Counted from the first letter of the stretch, positions 21,427-60,112 are shown. The stretch is DNA of 64,000 bases from Kiritimatiellales bacterium (GCA_003246265.1 QKAU01000067.1:1-64000); one strand, 5' to 3'. The notes: a model not told the origin generated them from the sequence alone. Numbers and translations: made by a program.

Positions 21427-21663
21427 CTACGCGACCGCCTTGCCACGCAGGAGTTCGACGACAACGTCGTCGCCATAGTAGGCCTTGGCCTGGGTTTCCA
21501 GTTGTTCAAGCACCTCCTCGACCGAATCGCCGAACGAGGGTTCCATGCCGATCAACCGCCCGCGCCAGTGGCGGGTTGCATCAATCCGGATATATCCCTC
21601 GGAAAGCTGCATGCCGTCAACCGGGTGAACGATGACCTCCTCCTCTGTGCCATTCCGCTTCAT
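21427..21663 (-). CDS. Small protein of unknown function
   Basis: A 78-residue protein that I cannot assign. Its sequence is mixed alpha/beta in character: a strand-like first part (EEEVIVHPVDGMQL) and a helical second part (SVEEVLEQLETQAKAYYG) ending VVVELLRGKAVA. The ATG at 21663 is supported by GAGAGGGTGA about 7 bases upstream. A strong promoter with an operator-like dyad stands directly before it (21671-21714), which argues that this is a real, regulated gene. The longer frame to 21849 runs through that promoter and is rejected. Confidence 0.55.
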   Translation of the reverse strand: MKRNGTEEEVIVHPVDGMQLSEGYIRIDATRHWRGRLIGMEPSFGDSVEEVLEQLETQAKAYYGDDVVVELLRGKAVA

Positions 21664-21670
21664 GCCATTC

Positions 21671-21714
21671 ACCCTCTCTAGAGGGTGTATATGCCTGCCG
21701 CGGAGGCGATGCAA
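21671..21714 (-). promoter_or_regulatory. Promoter with a start-site dyad for the 78-residue gene
   Basis: On the minus strand TTGCAT (21714-21709), 17 bp, TATACA (21691-21686). The inverted repeat ACCCTCT-CT-AGAGGGT (21671-21686) spans the expected transcription start and includes the ribosome binding site. It could be a repressor site or an RNA hairpin. Confidence 0.5.
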
Positions 21715-21799: not shown

Positions 21800-22951
21800 C
21801 TAATACGCTTCCACAACGGGGCTGTCGAGGTTTCCGATGGCGGCCGCATCCGGATCGTCGCGCGGAACCGGCGACAGCGGGACGCTCACCTGCGCGGGGG
21901 AGCTGGGGCCGACACCGATGACGTAGGAGCGGTAGCCCTGCATCTTGATCTCGAAGACGCGCTCGTTCTCCACCACGGTGGTGAACGGGGCATCGCCAAG
22001 CTTCTCCAGCCCGCCCAGCCGGTAGACCTCGCCGCCGGGCGGATCGGTCTGGATCGTCTTGTACGGAATCGCCTCGAGATCGACCCGCAGCGATCGCGGC
22101 GAGGCCGGCGATACCGCGACGGAGCGGTCGTAGCAGCCCTCCTTCTTGATCTCGAAAAGGGCGTCGCCGTCGATCTCCACCGTGTAGGGGACTTCACCCA
22201 GCCGTTCGATGCCGCCCGCGCGATAGACCTGGGCCCCGGGCGGACCGGTCAGCGTGACGCGCGTGAGCGGCTCGAGCTCGATCTGCACGAGCGCCGGCTC
22301 GTTCCGGCTGATCAGGACCTGCATGGGCCTGCAGCCGGGCAACCGGTACTCGAGCGCGCTGCCGGCCTCGACCATCAGGGTGACCGGCGTGATGCCGATC
22401 AGTTCCCCCGCGATGCGGTCGTAGATCTCGACCGGACCCTGGCGCGACGAGAACGATATCTTGCGGTAGAAGGCGGACTTGTAGCCCGAGAGCGATTCCA
22501 GTTCGAACAGGTGGTTCTGGTTCGGCACCACGTCGCGCTCGATCGTTTCGAAGCCGTCGAGCCGGACCTGCACGTGGGCGGGCTTCTTCAGGAAGAGGCT
22601 GCAGGGCGTCGTGCCGAGCTCCTCGCCGGTTTCCGTGTCGACGATCGACGCCCCCTTGGGCAGGGTGTCGACGCGCGTGCGGCCAATCCACTGGAGGTTG
22701 ATGTGCTGGCGCTTCGGGGCGAGCGAAGAGACGTAGACCTCCTCCTCGACATAGCCGTAGCGCTTGAGCGTGAAACGCCGCGCTCCGGATACCAGGTTGA
22801 AGGCGTACGGGGTCGTCCCGAGGCGCTCGCCGTTTTCATAGATATCGGCCACCGGCGCCGAGGTCAGCTCGAACGAGGAGCATCCCGCGGAGAGAAGCGC
22901 GGGCAGCAGCAGGAGCCATGCTGCGCGGACAAATCCGTCTCTGGTTTTCAC
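21800..22951 (-). CDS. Lipoprotein with five PEGA repeats
   Basis: The 383-residue protein starts at GTG 22951 with GGAGG 7 bases before it. A lipoprotein signal ends at LLSAGCSS (lipid-bearing Cys). Five successive PEGA-like units of about 70 residues fill the rest. Each shows the pattern strand, Y/I-E-x-G-x-x-LGxTP, strand: YENGERLGTTPYAF, DTETGEELGTTPCSL, DRIAGELIGITPVTL, AGGIERLGEVPYTV and LGGLEKLGDAPFTT. PEGA domains occur in surface proteins and are thought to bind peptidoglycan or other surface polymers. It follows the MotB/ExbD-like gene by 19 bases, so it is probably the envelope-side partner of that motor pair. Confidence 0.85.
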   Translation of the reverse strand: MKTRDGFVRAAWLLLLPALLSAGCSSFELTSAPVADIYENGERLGTTPYAFNLVSGARRFTLKRYGYVEEEVYVSSLAPKRQHINLQWIGRTRVDTLPKGASIVDTETGEELGTTPCSLFLKKPAHVQVRLDGFETIERDVVPNQNHLFELESLSGYKSAFYRKISFSSRQGPVEIYDRIAGELIGITPVTLMVEAGSALEYRLPGCRPMQVLISRNEPALVQIELEPLTRVTLTGPPGAQVYRAGGIERLGEVPYTVEIDGDALFEIKKEGCYDRSVAVSPASPRSLRVDLEAIPYKTIQTDPPGGEVYRLGGLEKLGDAPFTTVVENERVFEIKMQGYRSYVIGVGPSSPAQVSVPLSPVPRDDPDAAAIGNLDSPVVEAY

Positions 22952-22970
22952 AACAACACCTCCACAGGGA

Positions 22971-24182
22971 CTAGCGGTGCGGGTTTTCGATCGTAAGCCG
23001 GTCGAACCCAAGGCGGTCGAGGAAATCGGCATAGAACCACTTGGGCGGGTCGGGCTGTTCCCGTTCAAAGTGGTGGATGTAGGCCGCCCACGCCTCCGGG
23101 TAGGCCAGCAGGGGCGGGAAGACGCCCGACTGGTTGTTCGCCAATCGCCCTTCGAGCAGCGCCTCGGAGGCCCGGGTCTGCACCAGGGCGTTCCGCGCCC
23201 GCTCCTCGATGCGTTCCGCCGGACACCCGGCCTGTGCCAGCCGCACCCTGAGCCCATCCAGCGCCGGCCCGCCGCCGTTCGGAAACGCGTATTCGCGGTA
23301 GGCTTCCGCACAGGCGGAGAAACCCTCCTGCTCGAAGAATTCGATGCGCCGGTTGGTGCGCCTGGCCACGTCGCTCCACGCCTCGCCAAGGAAGACGATC
23401 TCGGTCAATCCGGAGGAGAACCCGCCAAGCCAGGCGAGCGAGCCGTCGTCGAGCGCATCGGGCAGCTTGTAGGCCGCATGGCCGATAATGATGAAATGCT
23501 CCTCGCCGGACGGGGTTTGTACGGTGCTGGTTTCGACGAAGACCTGGGTGCGTGCATGGCTGTACTCTTCGGGGCGGCGGGTCGGATAGACCGGACCGCC
23601 GTAGACCGGCCAGATGGAGGCGAGCAGCTGCCGGGTCAGGCTGCGGTCCGCGTTGGCCCGGTAGCCGGAAGGCAGCGCCGGCTCGTAGACCATCTGCTTG
23701 TCGAGGATGGAGGGCAGCAGCAGGGCCGTCTGGCGTCCGTCCGCCATGAACGATCCGGGATTGATGCCCGGGGCCACCTCGAGGAACCGGGCGAGCGGCA
23801 GGTCCTGCTGCTGCGCGAAGGTTTCGTCTTCCCCCAGCGCCACCGTCCCGCCTTCGCGCACATCCGTGGCGATGAGCGCCAGCGAGGGGCTGAAGAGATG
23901 GACGGCCACGTAGGGCTGGCCGGAAAACAGCGCACGTTCCACCGCCAGCTCCGGCACGGTGGTCGCGCCGAAGTCCGGCACCGTGCATTCCAGGTGCAGC
24001 GAGGGCCGCATGACACCCCCGCTGAACTTGCTGCGGTTGATCTGCACATTGAGGTTCTGGGTGATGCTGATCGCCAGCAGCGTTACCAGCAGCAGTGCCA
24101 CCGCCAGGGTGCACAGCGCAATATCCGAGAACGATTCGAAGATCGTTCCCTGCTCCTCTTCGAACTGGAAATCGTCGTCCAC
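22971..24182 (-). CDS. MotB/ExbD-like inner-membrane protein with a large periplasmic domain
   Basis: The 403-residue protein has a short acidic cytoplasmic N-terminus and one transmembrane helix at about residues 20-43 (DIALCTLAVALLLVTLLAISI). An Asp at the start of the helix (residue 20) matches the proton-carrying Asp of MotB, ExbD and TolR. The remaining ~360 residues are periplasmic; I see no OmpA-like peptidoglycan-binding motif. It starts with GTG at 24182, three bases after the upstream channel gene. The size of the periplasmic region is far above ExbD/TolR (~140 residues). The motor role is inferred from the helix and the partner. Confidence 0.7.
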   Translation of the reverse strand: MDDDFQFEEEQGTIFESFSDIALCTLAVALLLVTLLAISITQNLNVQINRSKFSGGVMRPSLHLECTVPDFGATTVPELAVERALFSGQPYVAVHLFSPSLALIATDVREGGTVALGEDETFAQQQDLPLARFLEVAPGINPGSFMADGRQTALLLPSILDKQMVYEPALPSGYRANADRSLTRQLLASIWPVYGGPVYPTRRPEEYSHARTQVFVETSTVQTPSGEEHFIIIGHAAYKLPDALDDGSLAWLGGFSSGLTEIVFLGEAWSDVARRTNRRIEFFEQEGFSACAEAYREYAFPNGGGPALDGLRVRLAQAGCPAERIEERARNALVQTRASEALLEGRLANNQSGVFPPLLAYPEAWAAYIHHFEREQPDPPKWFYADFLDRLGFDRLTIENPHR

Positions 24183-24185
24183 GTC

Positions 24186-25727
24186 CTAGGCCTCTTTTCC
24201 CAAGCCGTCCTGCCCTAGGGCGGCCAGCACGCCAGCCGCCTCGCTGAGCTTGCGGGCGATGTCGGCCGCCTTTGCGTCGAGCCGGTGCTCGGCGTTGTTC
24301 CGCGCCAGCTCCATCGCTTCGCCGACGGAATCGACCAGCTGCGCCAGGCGCGCATCCGTCTCCTCGTGGATGCGCCGGGAGGACTCCTCAACCACCTTGA
24401 CGAGCGCCCGCAAACGCTCGTCGGCAAGCCGGTGCGTCTCCTCGGTGCTCTTCCCGATGGCCGCCGACAGCGTTCCAAGCCGGTCGTCGGCCTTCTGGTG
24501 AAGGGTATCGATGACCTGCCCGATCCGTTCCAGCAGGGCCGCTAGGCGGTCGTCCGCCTGCCGCCCCGCCTGGTCGATGGTGCTGCGGGAGAGATCCACC
24601 AGCGCCCTTAGCCTTTCGTCGGCAACCCGGTTGGTCTCCTCGACGGTCGACCGGCCCGTTTCCACGAGTGCACCGAGCTGCTCCGATGCCGTGCGGCTGG
24701 TCTCTCCGAGGGCCTGGCCCACCGCTTCGGCCACAGCCTGGGCGCGGGAATTGGCCAATTCGTTCGCCTGGCCGATGGTCGACGTCAGCGTTCCCAGCCG
24801 CTCGTCGGCCAGGCGGTTGGCTTCGTCGAGCGCCCGGGCCAGGGCGTCCGCCAGACCCTGCGCGCTCGCATGGCTCTTCGCGCCCGCCGCCTCGACCGCT
24901 TCGACGAGGTTGGCCAATCCTGCGGCCAGGGCCCCCTGCTTCGCATCGATCGTATCGATCGCCGTGCCCACGCTGTCGCCCAGGCGCTCGAGCTGCCCGT
25001 GCAGCGCACCCACGCATCCCTCCAGCTCCACGAGGGATTCGGAAGCCCGCTTCTCGAACTGGGGCGCGAGGAACAGTTCGGCAAAGCGCAGCGTATCGGC
25101 CACCAGCAGGGCGGCCGCCTTGCGCACTTCGGCCCCTTGGACCTTGAGCACCACGCCGCCGAGCAGGGCACCGAAGAAGGTCGTATAGAAGGCCGTGCCC
25201 ATCCCGGCCACCGCCCGGGTCAGCCCCGCCTTCATGGTGGCGTAGTCCGCGCTGTTGGATTGCAGCACCGTGTCGAGGCCGGTCACGGTCATGATCAGGC
25301 CGAGCACCGTGCCGAAGAGCCCGGTCGTGATCAGCATGTTGGCGATCACCCCGACATTTTCAATGCGCGCCTTGAGCTTGGTGGAGTAGGCCGAGACGAG
25401 GTTGCGCACCTCGATGCGCTCGCCCCGCCGGATGCGCTCCAGAATGGCATCGAACATCGCCGCGACGTCCGACTCGTTCGCGTCGACGACGCGCTGTTCG
25501 GCCTCCATCTGCTGGAGCGACTTGAACTCCTTTTCCAGCAGCAGGGCCGAGCGCAGCGAGAACCACAGCCCCAGGATGAAGAACAGCAGGATGATGAGGG
25601 TAATCTTGCTCGAGTCGGCGGTGAAGCCCGCCACGAAATAGTCCCACGTCACCGTCACGAAAATGCCCAGCACGATGACGCTCCAGAAGATCCACGTCAT
25701 GATGGGCGAAACGCTTCTCTTCGCCAT
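24186..25727 (-). CDS. MotA/TolQ/ExbB-like channel with a long 22-residue-repeat tail (ZorA-like layout)
   Basis: The 513-residue protein has transmembrane helices at about 11-32, 41-63, 124-148 and 174-197. The third contains TTGLFGTVLGLIMTV, the counterpart of the TolQ/MotA pore helix, and the fourth has GTAFYTTFFGALLGG. Residues ~230-500 form a charged helical tail. From residue 347, units of exactly 22 residues begin with ADERL-type motifs at 347, 369, 391, 413, 435, 457 and 479, with a related copy at 307. A 22-residue period equals two hendecads, expected for a right-handed coiled coil. ATG 25727 follows GGAGG. The layout resembles ZorA, but no other Zorya gene is present. Confidence 0.8.
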   Translation of the reverse strand: MAKRSVSPIMTWIFWSVIVLGIFVTVTWDYFVAGFTADSSKITLIILLFFILGLWFSLRSALLLEKEFKSLQQMEAEQRVVDANESDVAAMFDAILERIRRGERIEVRNLVSAYSTKLKARIENVGVIANMLITTGLFGTVLGLIMTVTGLDTVLQSNSADYATMKAGLTRAVAGMGTAFYTTFFGALLGGVVLKVQGAEVRKAAALLVADTLRFAELFLAPQFEKRASESLVELEGCVGALHGQLERLGDSVGTAIDTIDAKQGALAAGLANLVEAVEAAGAKSHASAQGLADALARALDEANRLADERLGTLTSTIGQANELANSRAQAVAEAVGQALGETSRTASEQLGALVETGRSTVEETNRVADERLRALVDLSRSTIDQAGRQADDRLAALLERIGQVIDTLHQKADDRLGTLSAAIGKSTEETHRLADERLRALVKVVEESSRRIHEETDARLAQLVDSVGEAMELARNNAEHRLDAKAADIARKLSEAAGVLAALGQDGLGKEA

Positions 25728-25860
25728 GATCCGTTCCTCCTTCGTCCAGTGGCGCGCAGCGACCGCTTTATTCAAACCATCGGAAATCGGTGCGACTATG
25801 GCACAAACCCCCATGCAAGGCATTCAGAAACTGGCTGGATTTTGGGCGGTTGCGCCCGCC

Positions 25861-25888
25861 TTGCATTCCTGCACCGCCCTGCTACGCT
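25861..25888 (+). promoter_or_regulatory. Candidate leaderless promoter of the Mut7-C gene
   Basis: TTGCAT (25861-25866), 16 bp, TACGCT (25883-25888), then 7 bases to the ATG at 25896. No ribosome binding site. Confidence 0.45.
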
Positions 25889-25895
25889 GGGCCCC

Positions 25896-54297: not shown

Positions 54298-55395
<1,098 letters not shown>

Positions 55396-55453
55396 TCCGC
55401 CGGCGGCGTGCCGCCATGTGCCTGTTCGCCTGTCCGCCCGGTAGGGACGGATA

Positions 55454-56278
55454 GTGTTGAAGAACCGAAAAGCGATCTATGCCGCGGCAGCAGCCCTTGT
55501 GCTGTTGTTCGCCTTTGTTGCGCCCTCGTCGCTCACCCGCCGCGGCAAGGGGGCGGTGCGCAGCGCAACGGCCCCGGCCGAACGCGGCGCGGCCACCCTC
55601 TGGCGCCGTCTCGCCGAAGCCTCCGCCGTCATCCGCGGCATCGGCGGCGCCGTCGAAAGGAACCGGGAGCTCTCCCAGGAACTGGTCCGGGTCCAGACCG
55701 AACTCAGCGGCCTGCGCGATGCCGAGAACGACAACGTCCGCCTGCGCCGCGCCTTCGATTTCTCCCGCCAGGCCCCCTTCGCCCTCATCCCGTGCGAGGT
55801 CGTGTCCCGCAACATCGACGGCTGGTGGGGCACGGTCCGGATCGGCAAGGGATCGACCGCGGGCATCGAACCCAACCGCGCCGTCGTCAGCCCGGACGGC
55901 CTGGTGGGCCGCACGGCGGAGGTCGCGCCGCTCTCGAGCGAGGTGCTCCTGCTTTCCGACCCCGGCTGCCGCGTCTCCGCCAAGATCCTGCGCGTCGAGG
56001 TCTTCGGACTGGTACGGGGCGTCGGCACCAACCTGCGGGGCGAACCGCGCGCCCGTATCGATTTCATCAACAAGGATGTGGATATCCACGCCAACGACGA
56101 GGTCGTCACCTCCGGCCTCGGGGCGTTCCCGAAAGGGGTGCACATCGGCTACGTGAGCGCGGTCCACCGCGACGAGTCGGGGCTCTACCAGTATGCGGAG
56201 ATCATCCCGCGCGCCACGGCGGGGCTGCTCGACTACCTCTTCGTGGTGACGGATGCCGGGAAGGAGCCCGCCCCGTGA
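55454..56278 (+). CDS. mreC: Rod shape-determining protein MreC
   Basis: A 274-residue bitopic inner-membrane scaffold: one N-terminal helix (AIYAAAAALVLLFAFVAP), a periplasmic coiled coil (about 60-100, NRELSQELVRVQTELSGLRDAENDNVRLRRAFDF), then two beta domains with VRIGKGSTAGIEPNRAVVSPDGLVGRTAEV and DEVVTSGLGAFPKGVHIGYVS. It starts with GTG at 55454. Overlap GTGA with mreD. Confidence 0.93.
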   Translation: MLKNRKAIYAAAAALVLLFAFVAPSSLTRRGKGAVRSATAPAERGAATLWRRLAEASAVIRGIGGAVERNRELSQELVRVQTELSGLRDAENDNVRLRRAFDFSRQAPFALIPCEVVSRNIDGWWGTVRIGKGSTAGIEPNRAVVSPDGLVGRTAEVAPLSSEVLLLSDPGCRVSAKILRVEVFGLVRGVGTNLRGEPRARIDFINKDVDIHANDEVVTSGLGAFPKGVHIGYVSAVHRDESGLYQYAEIIPRATAGLLDYLFVVTDAGKEPAP

Positions 56279-56784
56279 AGGAACGCATCCTCATGCTCGT
56301 GCTGATCTTCTCGGGCGCACTGCTCCAGCAGCTGTTGCCGGCGTGGCCGCTGCTCGGCGGGGCCAAGCCGCCCATCCTCGCCGCGCTGGCGCTCCACTAC
56401 GCCCTGCGGCGCACCGGCCGCGACCTGTGGCTGGCCATCTTCGCGGCGGCCCTGCTGCGCGACGGCCTCGACCTCGGTCCTTTCGGCCCAGCCCTGCTCG
56501 CCTTCCCGCTGATGGGCCTGCTGGCCCGGCGCGTGCGCAACGACATCTTCGCCGACGGACTGGTCACCCAGCTGGTCTTCGGCGCGCTCGCCGGTGGCAT
56601 GGCCGCCCTGATGGCGATGCTGGTCTACATGGGCTCCGGCCAGCGCCCGGTCCAGCCGGGCCATGCGCTCCTGCACCTCCTCGGGGCGGCCCTGCTCGGC
56701 ATGGCCACCCTCCCGCTGGTGTCGCGCGCCGCCAGCCGGCTGGAAGCCGCCCTTCCCAGGCGAAGGGGGTACGGATGGCAGTAA
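56275..56784 (+). CDS. mreD: Rod shape-determining protein MreD
   Basis: A 169-residue polytopic protein with about five helices (LVLIFSGALLQQLLPAW, LLGGAKPPILAALALHYAL, GPALLAFPLMGLL and others). The sequence is poorly conserved, as is usual for MreD; identity rests on size, topology and place between mreC and PBP2. It starts with GTG 56275 in the mreC stop and overlaps the PBP2 start by 10 bases. Confidence 0.88.
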   Translation: MKERILMLVLIFSGALLQQLLPAWPLLGGAKPPILAALALHYALRRTGRDLWLAIFAAALLRDGLDLGPFGPALLAFPLMGLLARRVRNDIFADGLVTQLVFGALAGGMAALMAMLVYMGSGQRPVQPGHALLHLLGAALLGMATLPLVSRAASRLEAALPRRRGYGWQ

Positions 56785-58949
56785 GGGTCCGCAAGAAACG
56801 GGAGCGCAGCATTGTCGTCATCTGGTCCGTCTTTGGGCTCATGCTGGCGGGGATGGGCGTGCTGGCCTCGACCCTCTGGAAGCTCCAGGTGGAGCAGAAG
56901 AGCGACTTCGACGAGGACTTCCGCAACCAGAGCGTGCGGCGCGTCCGCCTGCCTGCGGTGCGCGGCAAGATCCTCGACGCGCGCGGCGGCGTGCTGGCCG
57001 ACAGCGTGCCGGACTACTGCATCGCCATCTACACCGAGGAGCTGCGTTCGCCGCGCTCCGCCGTGGCCAATACGCTGGAGCTGGTGCACGAAATCTGGGC
57101 GCGCACGGGCAAGGCGCCGGACGTCGACTACCACGACATCCAGCGGCATATCGGCCTTACACCCAACCAGCCGCTCGTCGCCTGGAAAAACCTGGATCCG
57201 GAAGCCGCCGCGCAATGGCGCCGCGCCTTCGAGGAGTGGACCGCACCACCCAAGGGCTCGCGGCGGCGCCACACGATCCCGGGCCTGGACCTGGGCAAGC
57301 CGCTCCAGGGCGGCAGCATCGTGATCAACACCGGCGAACTGGCAAGGCGGGGCACCACCACGGCCGCCAACACCCTGGAGATGGTCTACGAAATCTCCGA
57401 GCGCATCGGCATTCCGCGGACCATCCGCTTCCAGGAGATCAAGGACCACATCTACGCCCGCCGCCCGCTCCCCCTGCTGGCGTGGAAGCACCTCGACGAC
57501 GCCGCGATGGCGCGGTGGGCCGACACCTGCTCCGACCTGGCGGCGACCGACATCTACTGCCTGCCGGCGCGCACCTATCCCGAGGGCGATGCCCTCGCCC
57601 ACCTGGTCGGCTACACCCTGCCGGCCGACGCCATCAGCGAGGAGGAGGGCGAACGCATCCATTTCGACCTGCGCGGCATCGTGGGCCGCAAGGGCCTGGA
57701 AGGGACCTACGACGACCTGCTCCAGGGGGAGCCGGGCTATACGCTGATCCAGATCGACGTGTCCGGATTCCATTACCGCGACCTCGAGAAAAGGCCACCG
57801 AAACCGGGGGGCGACCTGGTGCTGACCGTCGACAAGGAGATCCAGCGCTTCGCGGCCGAGGCGCTCGCCGCGCGGCAGGATGGCGAAGATCCGGCCGCGC
57901 CGGTGCGGGGCGCGGTGGTGGTGCTCGACCCGAACAACGGCGACGTGCTGGCGATGGCCAGCTCCCCCTCGTTCGACCCGAACATCTACATGGAGTCGGC
58001 CGCCTACCGCCAGGCGCTGCTGAAGGATGATACGGCGCGGACCTTCAACCGCGCGGTGTTCGGGCAATACCCGCCGGGCAGCACCTTCAAGCCGGTGGCG
58101 GCGCTCGGGGTGCTCAAGGAGCAGCCCGGCTACGCGGAGGTCTTCCACGAATGCCGGAATCCCTACTATGTGGACAAGCGCCGGATGCGCTGCTGGATCC
58201 ATTCGCGCCATGGCGAGCATGGCCGGATCAACCTGCGCCAGGCGCTGATGTATTCCTGCAACTGCTACCTGTTCGAAATGGCGCAGGCGACCGGCTACGG
58301 GCCGATCCACGACATGGCGGTCCAGTTCGGCATCGGGCAGTACGCCGGACTTTTCCCCGAACTGGCGGAGCCGCCGGAGCAGAAGGAGATCCCCTACGGC
58401 AACCTGCCCGACAGGGCCATCAACACGGTGGACCTGTGCAACATGTCGATCGGCCAGGGCGCCATCACCGCCAGTCCGCTGCAGATGGCCATGGTCGCCG
58501 CGACGATCGCCAACGGCGGCACACTCTACCGCCCGCGGCTCGTGAAGCAGTGGCGCAACACCCCCGAAAGCCCCTACCAGACCAACCCGACCTGGGCCAT
58601 ACGCCGCATCGACGTGCCGATGGAGGCGCTCGAAACGGTGCGCGGCGGCATGTACGACGTGGTCCAGGACCGCGAGGGCACCGCCCGGAAGGCCCACGTC
58701 GAGGGCGTCGAGATCGCCGGCAAGACCGGGTCGGCGGAGTACCGCAAACGGGTCGGCGGCGAAGTGGTCGGCAGCGTCCACACCTGGATGATCTCCTACG
58801 CCCCGTTCAACCTCCCCCGCTACGCGGTGGCCATGCTGGTCGAGGACGGCGCCTCCGGCGGCAACACGGTGGGCCCGCGCCTGAGCCGGCTCTACACCAG
58901 CATCTTCGAATACGAGGCCGCCCAGGCCAAGAGGGGGGTGGCGCCATGA
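56775..58949 (+). CDS. mrdA: Penicillin-binding protein 2 with a duplicated N-terminal segment
   Basis: The class B transpeptidase of the rod complex. It is 724 residues, about 90 longer than E. coli PBP2. One N-terminal helix (RSIVVIWSVFGLMLAGMGVL) is followed by the pedestal domain and the transpeptidase domain with STFK at 436-439 (catalytic Ser436), SCN at 494-496 and KTGSAE at 650-655. The extra length is an internal duplication: residues ~81-155 and ~181-255 align with a constant offset of 100. ANTLELVHEI (98-107) matches ANTLEMVYEI (198-207), and LVAWKNLD (134-141) matches LLAWKHLD (234-241). Confidence 0.94.
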   Translation: MAVRVRKKRERSIVVIWSVFGLMLAGMGVLASTLWKLQVEQKSDFDEDFRNQSVRRVRLPAVRGKILDARGGVLADSVPDYCIAIYTEELRSPRSAVANTLELVHEIWARTGKAPDVDYHDIQRHIGLTPNQPLVAWKNLDPEAAAQWRRAFEEWTAPPKGSRRRHTIPGLDLGKPLQGGSIVINTGELARRGTTTAANTLEMVYEISERIGIPRTIRFQEIKDHIYARRPLPLLAWKHLDDAAMARWADTCSDLAATDIYCLPARTYPEGDALAHLVGYTLPADAISEEEGERIHFDLRGIVGRKGLEGTYDDLLQGEPGYTLIQIDVSGFHYRDLEKRPPKPGGDLVLTVDKEIQRFAAEALAARQDGEDPAAPVRGAVVVLDPNNGDVLAMASSPSFDPNIYMESAAYRQALLKDDTARTFNRAVFGQYPPGSTFKPVAALGVLKEQPGYAEVFHECRNPYYVDKRRMRCWIHSRHGEHGRINLRQALMYSCNCYLFEMAQATGYGPIHDMAVQFGIGQYAGLFPELAEPPEQKEIPYGNLPDRAINTVDLCNMSIGQGAITASPLQMAMVAATIANGGTLYRPRLVKQWRNTPESPYQTNPTWAIRRIDVPMEALETVRGGMYDVVQDREGTARKAHVEGVEIAGKTGSAEYRKRVGGEVVGSVHTWMISYAPFNLPRYAVAMLVEDGASGGNTVGPRLSRLYTSIFEYEAAQAKRGVAP

Positions 58950-60112
58950 ACGGCATCCAGCACCGGCGCATCGACTGGGCCATGCTCGGCACGATCCTCG
59001 TGCTCATCGGCCTGAGCGCGGCCTTCATCTACAGCGCCCAGTTCAAGTCCGAAGCCGACCCGGTCGGCACCAACTGGATCAAGCAACTGGTCTTCGCCGG
59101 GCTGGGGCTGTGCGCCTACGGGGCGCTCACCTGGCTGGACTACCAGGCGCTGGCCCGCATGGCATGGTTCGTCTACGGTGGCGCGGTCGTGCTGCTGCTG
59201 GCGGTCTTCCTCTTCCCGGAGGTGAACGGCGCGCACCGCTGGATCCCCCTGCCGGGCATCACCTTCCAGCCCTCGGAGGTGGCGAAGGTCGCCGTGGTCG
59301 TGGCGCTGGCGGCCTGGCTTGCCGCCCCCGACCGCGACCTGGACGAGTGGGGCACCTTCTTCGCCTGCGCGGCGATCGTCGGGCTCCCGTTCCTGCTGAT
59401 CGCGGCGGAGCCGGACCTGAGCACCTCGCTGATGCTCGCGCCGATCTCGCTGGCCATCATGCTCTACATGGGCGTGCAGCGGAAGCTGCTGCTGGCCGCC
59501 ATGGCCGCGGTGCTGCTGCTGGCCGCCGCCTGCTGCCTCTGGATCAAGTACGAGCGCCCGCCCGAGGGCGAGGAGGCGGGGCCGGGACAGGTGCTGCCGC
59601 GCATGCCGCTGCTGCAGGAGTACCAGAAGGGGCGCATCAAGGTCTTCCTGACGAAGAACCACGACCTCGCCGACGCGGGCTGGAACAAGCTGCAGTCGCA
59701 GATCGCGGTGGGCTCCGGCGGCCTGCGCGGCAAGGGGTGGCTGCAGGGGACCCAGAACAACCTCGGGTTCCTGCCGCGCACCGTGGCCCCGACCGATTTC
59801 ATCTTCTGCGTGGTCGCGGAAGAGACCGGGTTCGTGGGCGGGATGTTCTTCATCCTGCTCTACACCGTGTTGCTGGGAGGATGCATGCGGGCCGCGCTGC
59901 GGGCCCGCGACGAGTTTGGGCGGCTGCTGGCGCTGGGTATCGGCACCATGCTGTTCTGCCACGTGTTTGTGAACATCGCGATGACGATCGGCCTGCTGCC
60001 GATCACGGGGCTTCCGCTGCCGCTGATGAGCTACGGCGGATCCTTCATGGTCGTGACCATGATCGCGCTCGGGCTGGTGCAAAGCGTGTACCAGCGCCGG
60101 AGGATTAGATAA
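58946..60112 (+). CDS. rodA: Peptidoglycan glycosyltransferase RodA
   Basis: The SEDS-family glycan polymerase partner of PBP2, 388 residues and about ten helices. It has FPEVNGAHRWIPLPGITFQPSEVAKVAVVVALAAWL, AAEPDLSTSLMLAPISLAIM (the conserved D-x-S/G region), and, in the large extracytoplasmic loop, NKLQSQIAVGSGGLRGKGWLQGTQ and FLPRTVAPTDFIFCVVAEETGFVGG. The end GLLPITGLPLPLMSYGGSFMV is diagnostic. The ATG overlaps the PBP2 stop (ATGA). Confidence 0.96.
   Translation: MNGIQHRRIDWAMLGTILVLIGLSAAFIYSAQFKSEADPVGTNWIKQLVFAGLGLCAYGALTWLDYQALARMAWFVYGGAVVLLLAVFLFPEVNGAHRWIPLPGITFQPSEVAKVAVVVALAAWLAAPDRDLDEWGTFFACAAIVGLPFLLIAAEPDLSTSLMLAPISLAIMLYMGVQRKLLLAAMAAVLLLAAACCLWIKYERPPEGEEAGPGQVLPRMPLLQEYQKGRIKVFLTKNHDLADAGWNKLQSQIAVGSGGLRGKGWLQGTQNNLGFLPRTVAPTDFIFCVVAEETGFVGGMFFILLYTVLLGGCMRAALRARDEFGRLLALGIGTMLFCHVFVNIAMTIGLLPITGLPLPLMSYGGSFMVVTMIALGLVQSVYQRRRIR

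Follow-up and report, generated by a model that had tools for sequence, protein, structure and literature searches.

The window analyzed here, a stretch of 64,000 nucleotides, is contig C72 of a 3.0-Mb genome, a MAG of the Kiritimatiellales/Pontiella type. Three genes, referred to below as A, B and C, are located at the locus under study; their coordinates, along with those of related loci, are collected in Table 1. The tight three-gene operon proposed in the first-pass annotation was recovered in full: all three ORFs are present, separated by gaps of 3 bp (A-B) and 19 bp (B-C). The divergent Mut7-C gene and apt lie on the upstream side, and the gap between A and Mut7-C is presumed to be the promoter region of the operon. 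The downstream side is occupied by the orphan gene w19, rsgA and a thioesterase gene, and w19 is retained in genomes that lack A-B-C. Since orthologues in the same order (~46-73% identity) are found in other genomes, A-B-C is not a chance set of ORFs. Two named orthologue loci belong to a Kiritimatiellales bacterium and to a Pontiella sp.

Table 1. Coordinates of the A-B-C genes, their surroundings and related loci.
Feature	Coordinates	Strand	Basis or remark
A, ZorA/MotA-type ion channel, 513 aa	24186-25727	-	Pfam MotA_ExbB, ZorA homology
B, one-helix partner of A, 403 aa	22971-24182	-	ORF; invariant Asp20
C, five-PEGA lipoprotein, 383 aa	21800-22951	-	Pfam PEGA, lipobox
168-bp gap between A and divergent Mut7-C gene	25728-25895	none	gene calls
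w19, 81-aa conserved orphan between C gene and rsgA	21427-21672	-	without family match
Autotransporter gene, G011	L028:3787-7359		gap to C 15 bp
Autotransporter gene, G016	L027:3328-6972		called start overlaps C
Type-2 A-B pair	L016:8560-11138		without adjacent PEGA gene

Protein A passes the Pfam MotA_ExbB cut-off (24.8 bits against 22.9). Its hydropathy profile contains three strong helices (about residues 9-35, 44-62 and 127-155); the fourth helix of the proposed four-helix channel (about 170-196) is backed by homology, through a GTAFYTT motif, and by a low-confidence helical model. The last two membrane helices carry GT and TT pore motifs, which fits the MotA/ExbB/TolQ proton-channel superfamily, and the pore-type residues T140, T182 and T183 are invariant in an alignment of 17 homologues. 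The cytoplasmic tail, previously put at ~280 residues, measures ~310. It follows a 22-residue register between about residues 295 and 492, and for the window protein the identity found at a lag of 22 exceeds the average over lags by 4.4 s.d.; tail-length differences among the homologues show a mixed 22/18 spacing rather than strict multiples of 22. With this variable tail, A ranges from 387 to 600 aa among close orthologues, whereas the length of C is fixed (383-384 aa in all close orthologues).

So that the coiled-coil tail could not sway the result, only residues 1-205 of the 17 homologues were aligned and compared with solved structures. The best match was type I ZorA (8VVN, E 1.1e-5), followed by MotA (E 0.01), and neither ExbB nor TolQ was among the matches. 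The PADLOC ZorA3 model scored 41 bits with the whole protein and 28.9 bits with the core alone, and all 17 family members matched PADLOC ZorA models on the core alone. Matches to NCBIfam were weak throughout (ZorA models matched 16 of the 17 members and TolQ matched 9), and the window protein stayed far below the curated cut-offs, which are 190-500 bits for ZorA and 221 bits for TolQ, the latter model giving 11.5 bits. AlphaFold2 produced a poor model of A from three sequences (pLDDT 45), and a Foldseek search with it gave no significant match, ExbB, MotA, TolQ and ZorA appearing alongside helical proteins unrelated to them; comparing profiles of A or B with individual MotA, MotB, TolQ or TolR sequences was uninformative. 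As judged from the core alignment, the core of A belongs with ZorA and not with TolQ/ExbB. The ZorA-like label given earlier to the channel is thus borne out, and no match to TolQ/TolR or ExbB/ExbD, which would have spoken against it, exceeded a curated cut-off.

Protein B contains a single helix (residues 21-39) that begins directly after Asp20 and is followed by ~360 periplasmic residues, just as had been described for the partner of the channel. Phe18, Ser19 and Asp20 of its ESFSD motif are invariant across 18 homologues, among which identity otherwise falls to 30%. B had no match in Pfam, including ExbD, in PADLOC, in NCBIfam or, at E<=10, in the PDB; profile comparison with E. coli MotB also gave nothing. 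None of the 18 members matched OmpA in Pfam or ZorB in PADLOC, in agreement with the partner having no OmpA motif by sequence. No sequence match to vWA was found either, and the AlphaFold2 model of B (three sequences, pLDDT 35) was unusable.

Protein C matches Pfam PEGA with 56 bits (cut-off 20.8; 3.8e-15). Its description as a five-PEGA lipoprotein stands as far as the lipobox and the five units seen by eye and in the family alignment are concerned, whereas Pfam alone scores only two stretches. The lipobox reads LLSAGC|S, and the lipid-bearing Cys24 is invariant in 14 homologues, where it is followed by Ser, Ala or Thr. By the E. coli +2 rule, the Ser after the lipobox Cys predicts that C is located in the outer membrane. 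A paralogous PEGA lipoprotein of 442 aa is encoded at another locus (L036:9236-10564) and has homologues in most genomes of the order. In our search of the literature we came across no paper that connects PEGA proteins with ion motors of this kind.

The A-B kind of the window's A-B-C locus is called type 1 here, and we consider a genus-level group of 28 genomes. Type 1 is present in 13 of them, and the order A-B-C is consistent in all 13, so the three genes do stay together in related genomes; they are adjacent on one contig in 11 carriers, and in the other two, G012 and G026, the assembly is broken within B. Among close orthologues B is more conserved (64-72% identity) than A (46-54%). When 388 genomes of the phylum were searched with the B profile, matches were confined to the genus-level group; in the search of relatives, G039, a member of a sister family, matched B. 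At the apt / w19-rsgA-4HBT site of G001, G004, G024 and G027, A, B and C are all missing and the flanking genes are still neighbours, and in G009 all that remains at this site is a damaged remnant of C's final PEGA unit. In the RsgA tree, where many forks are weakly supported, genomes without type 1 are scattered among carriers (for example, G001 beside G017). This pattern fits repeated loss of the A-B-C block. Joint retention and joint loss of the three genes are best accounted for if they form a single functional unit. Neither type 1 nor the second locus type described below is present in G004 and G015; therefore, the system is not essential. The block is retained, in turn, in two reduced genomes of 1.2 Mb, G011 and G016.

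Two further features of the site were observed. In one genome (G021; L119, 7813-9809), apt is present twice at the A-B-C site, with one copy in pieces. In several genomes, a gene for a 216-aa secreted protein with paired Cys motifs (L015:11900-12550) is located 3' of C; the gene is absent from the window, and the protein family has no Pfam or NCBIfam match.

The genome has its own Tol and Ton machinery. A complete tolQ-tolR-tolA-tolB-pal operon is present (L082). L081 carries an ExbB/ExbD pair next to a gene resembling TonB-dependent receptors, L083 and L084 each carry a TPR-tolQ-tolR-tolR set, and a further set lies at L085; at L081-L085 the channel and ExbD genes were identified by family searches, and the remaining names are readings of the sequence. 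Of 45 relatives, 43 have TolB. A Tol-Pal/Ton set (TolQ/ExbB, TolR/ExbD and a TolA/TonB partner) is not found at A-B-C. We therefore conclude that A-B-C is a machine additional to the complete Tol-Pal operon and the several ExbB/ExbD sets of its genome. We also considered a link to Tol-Pal through the YbgC-like thioesterase gene 3' of A-B-C and rejected it: the apt-w19-rsgA-thioesterase arrangement stays in genomes without A-B-C, and the full Tol-Pal set is elsewhere.

Our leading reading, held with about even confidence, is that A-B-C encodes an ion-driven rotary motor with 5:2 stoichiometry, belonging to the ZorA branch and specific to this clade, that acts through the outer-membrane PEGA lipoprotein C in upkeep or remodelling of the envelope. 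By analogy with what is known of the family, five A subunits would form the channel, their tails bundling into a cytoplasmic rod, and two B helices would stand inside the pore, carrying the ion-binding Asp20; ion flow would turn the A ring around B. The periplasmic domain of B could then pass motion to the outer membrane through a presumed contact with C, which would replace the peptidoglycan-binding OmpA-type domain of MotB and ZorB. The likeliest job of such a motor would be to maintain or remodel, by mechanical means, the outer membrane or the proteins on its surface, in addition to the separate Tol-Pal and Ton systems.

A second type of A-B pair bears on the part played by C. Type-2 pairs are present in 17 genomes of the genus-level group, including the window's own (L016), and their B proteins are 40-45% identical to those of type 1. 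At the loci examined, the pair has a conserved position convergent with an htrA-like protease gene and xseB-xseA-ymdB. In one genome (G025:C134:4855-5864) the type-2 B gene is broken by stop codons. Only in G039 does a PEGA gene adjoin the type-2 pair; it encodes a distant PEGA lipoprotein and lies on a small, 4.6-kb contig of a MAG, which may be contamination. As most type-2 pairs have no PEGA gene beside them, the motor may be able to do without C. In an alternative reading, A and B by themselves make up the functional core as a self-contained motor or channel, C is a passenger lipoprotein encoded in the operon without being its output, and types 1 and 2 are duplicates with the same task; the wide occurrence of type-2 pairs without a PEGA neighbour speaks for it. 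We consider this unlikely: C adjoins A-B in every type-1 genome, the two very reduced ones included, and is lost with A-B; another PEGA gene adjoins type 2 in G039; and the genomes with type 2 also carry a PEGA paralogue elsewhere, which could serve the type-2 pair.

The locus might also work as a sensor of the envelope rather than as a force generator, with tension on C or B opening the A-B channel and the tail rod reporting to the cytoplasm. A long, helical tail with a variable number of repeats, next to a C of fixed length, would suit such a device, both ends of which could be tethered; however, neither locus type has a linked signalling partner for the cytoplasm, such as a kinase, a cyclase or a sigma factor, and we regard a sensor as distinctly improbable.

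Most of what is known of ZorA-type motors comes from phage defence. A-B-C shares with ZorA-ZorB of Zorya (8VVN; PMC11890865) the ZorA-branch channel core, the long helical cytoplasmic tail and a one-helix partner with a pore Asp (D24 in ZorB, D20 in B). It differs in that B has no Pal/OmpA-like peptidoglycan-binding domain detectable by sequence, and in that A-B-C has a PEGA lipoprotein gene in the operon, occupies a fixed chromosomal site and has no ZorC/D/E effectors, whose absence had been noted before. A divergent Zorya-like anti-phage system, in which damage to the envelope is sensed by the periplasmic part and the flow of ions through A sends a signal along the tail to an effector encoded elsewhere, would draw on ZorA being the closest known channel family, on the long tail and on the accessory pattern with its repeated losses. 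Against it, B lacks a ZorB-type peptidoglycan domain by sequence, the neighbours are Mut7-C, apt, w19, RsgA and the thioesterase, with no ZorC/D, ZorE, ZorF/G or nuclease gene adjoining, the chromosomal site is the same across the genus, B was not found in the viral contigs or phage and plasmid records searched, and the block is retained in 1.2-Mb genomes. Defence is accordingly a very unlikely function in our estimate. Taken at the level of sequence, A-B-C is ZorA-like by its channel and, by its partner and neighbours, is not a member of Zorya. If it is indeed a conserved non-defence relative of ZorA, the ZorA branch would also serve the cell envelope, and A-B-C would give an outgroup for how Zorya arose.

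A-B-C is real and conserved, an apparently undescribed variant among the ion-driven motors. Like Tol-Pal (TolQRAB-Pal), it combines an ion-driven inner-membrane motor and a lipoprotein gene in one operon, but A is not TolQ, and TolA, TolB and Pal are lacking here while the complete Tol-Pal is at L082. With MotAB/PomAB stators it shares the plan of channel and axle, MotA being the next-best solved relative of the A core; unlike them, it has a B without an OmpA match, an A with a long coiled-coil tail and a non-flagellar context. TolQ-like plus vWA force transducers (PMC12204202) are motors of the 5:2 kind in PVC bacteria; they are uncharacterised, and their periplasmic partners are unusual. A-B-C would resemble them in its inferred 5:2 type, its occurrence in PVC bacteria and its unusual periplasmic partner, but B has no detectable vWA, A and B do not occur in heterologous pairs, and A is long-tailed.

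A surface protein may be involved in two genomes. Directly 3' of A-B-C in the reduced genomes G011 and G016 there is a gene for a signal-peptide protein of ~1200 aa (Table 1). The G011 protein contains an autotransporter barrel (E 3.8e-21) and is 40% identical to that of G016. Related barrels are found in 27 of the 28 genomes of the genus as compared with 1 of 17 other relatives, a distribution that parallels A-B. Shared ancestry confounds this contrast, however, and barrels also occur in several genomes that lack A-B. A surface autotransporter as the output of A-B-C is a lead. A precedent by description is SiiAB, a MotAB-like proton channel that controls the SiiE adhesin (PMC6272769); in both cases one operon combines a motor pair and a surface protein (for A-B-C, in G011 and G016 only), but A-B-C lacks type I secretion genes and its neighbour is an autotransporter. 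A trans-envelope machine in which a ZorA-type motor, an undescribed axle protein and an outer-membrane PEGA lipoprotein drive the assembly, retention or movement of a surface autotransporter seems to us a long shot; if true, the A-B-C-autotransporter operon of G011 and G016 would be the most complete form of that machine.

Cultured Pontiella strains exist (PMC10880615), and A-B-C is probably present in one of them or more, which makes the system open to testing. The published description of Pontiella (PMC10880615) gives the cells as Gram-negative, non-motile spheres, yet genes reading like the rod-shape set mreB-mreC-mreD-PBP2-rodA are present on the plus strand of the window (54367-60112). 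Across the phylum, the ZorA model revealed no clear Zorya locus, its matches being mostly coiled coils. Another long-tailed MotA/ExbB-like channel of about 450-475 aa with a zinc-ribbon-like N-terminus was seen at two loci of the same phylum (L094, L102), where its gene is followed by that of a one-helix protein of 268-304 aa; this pair is possibly a further undescribed motor.
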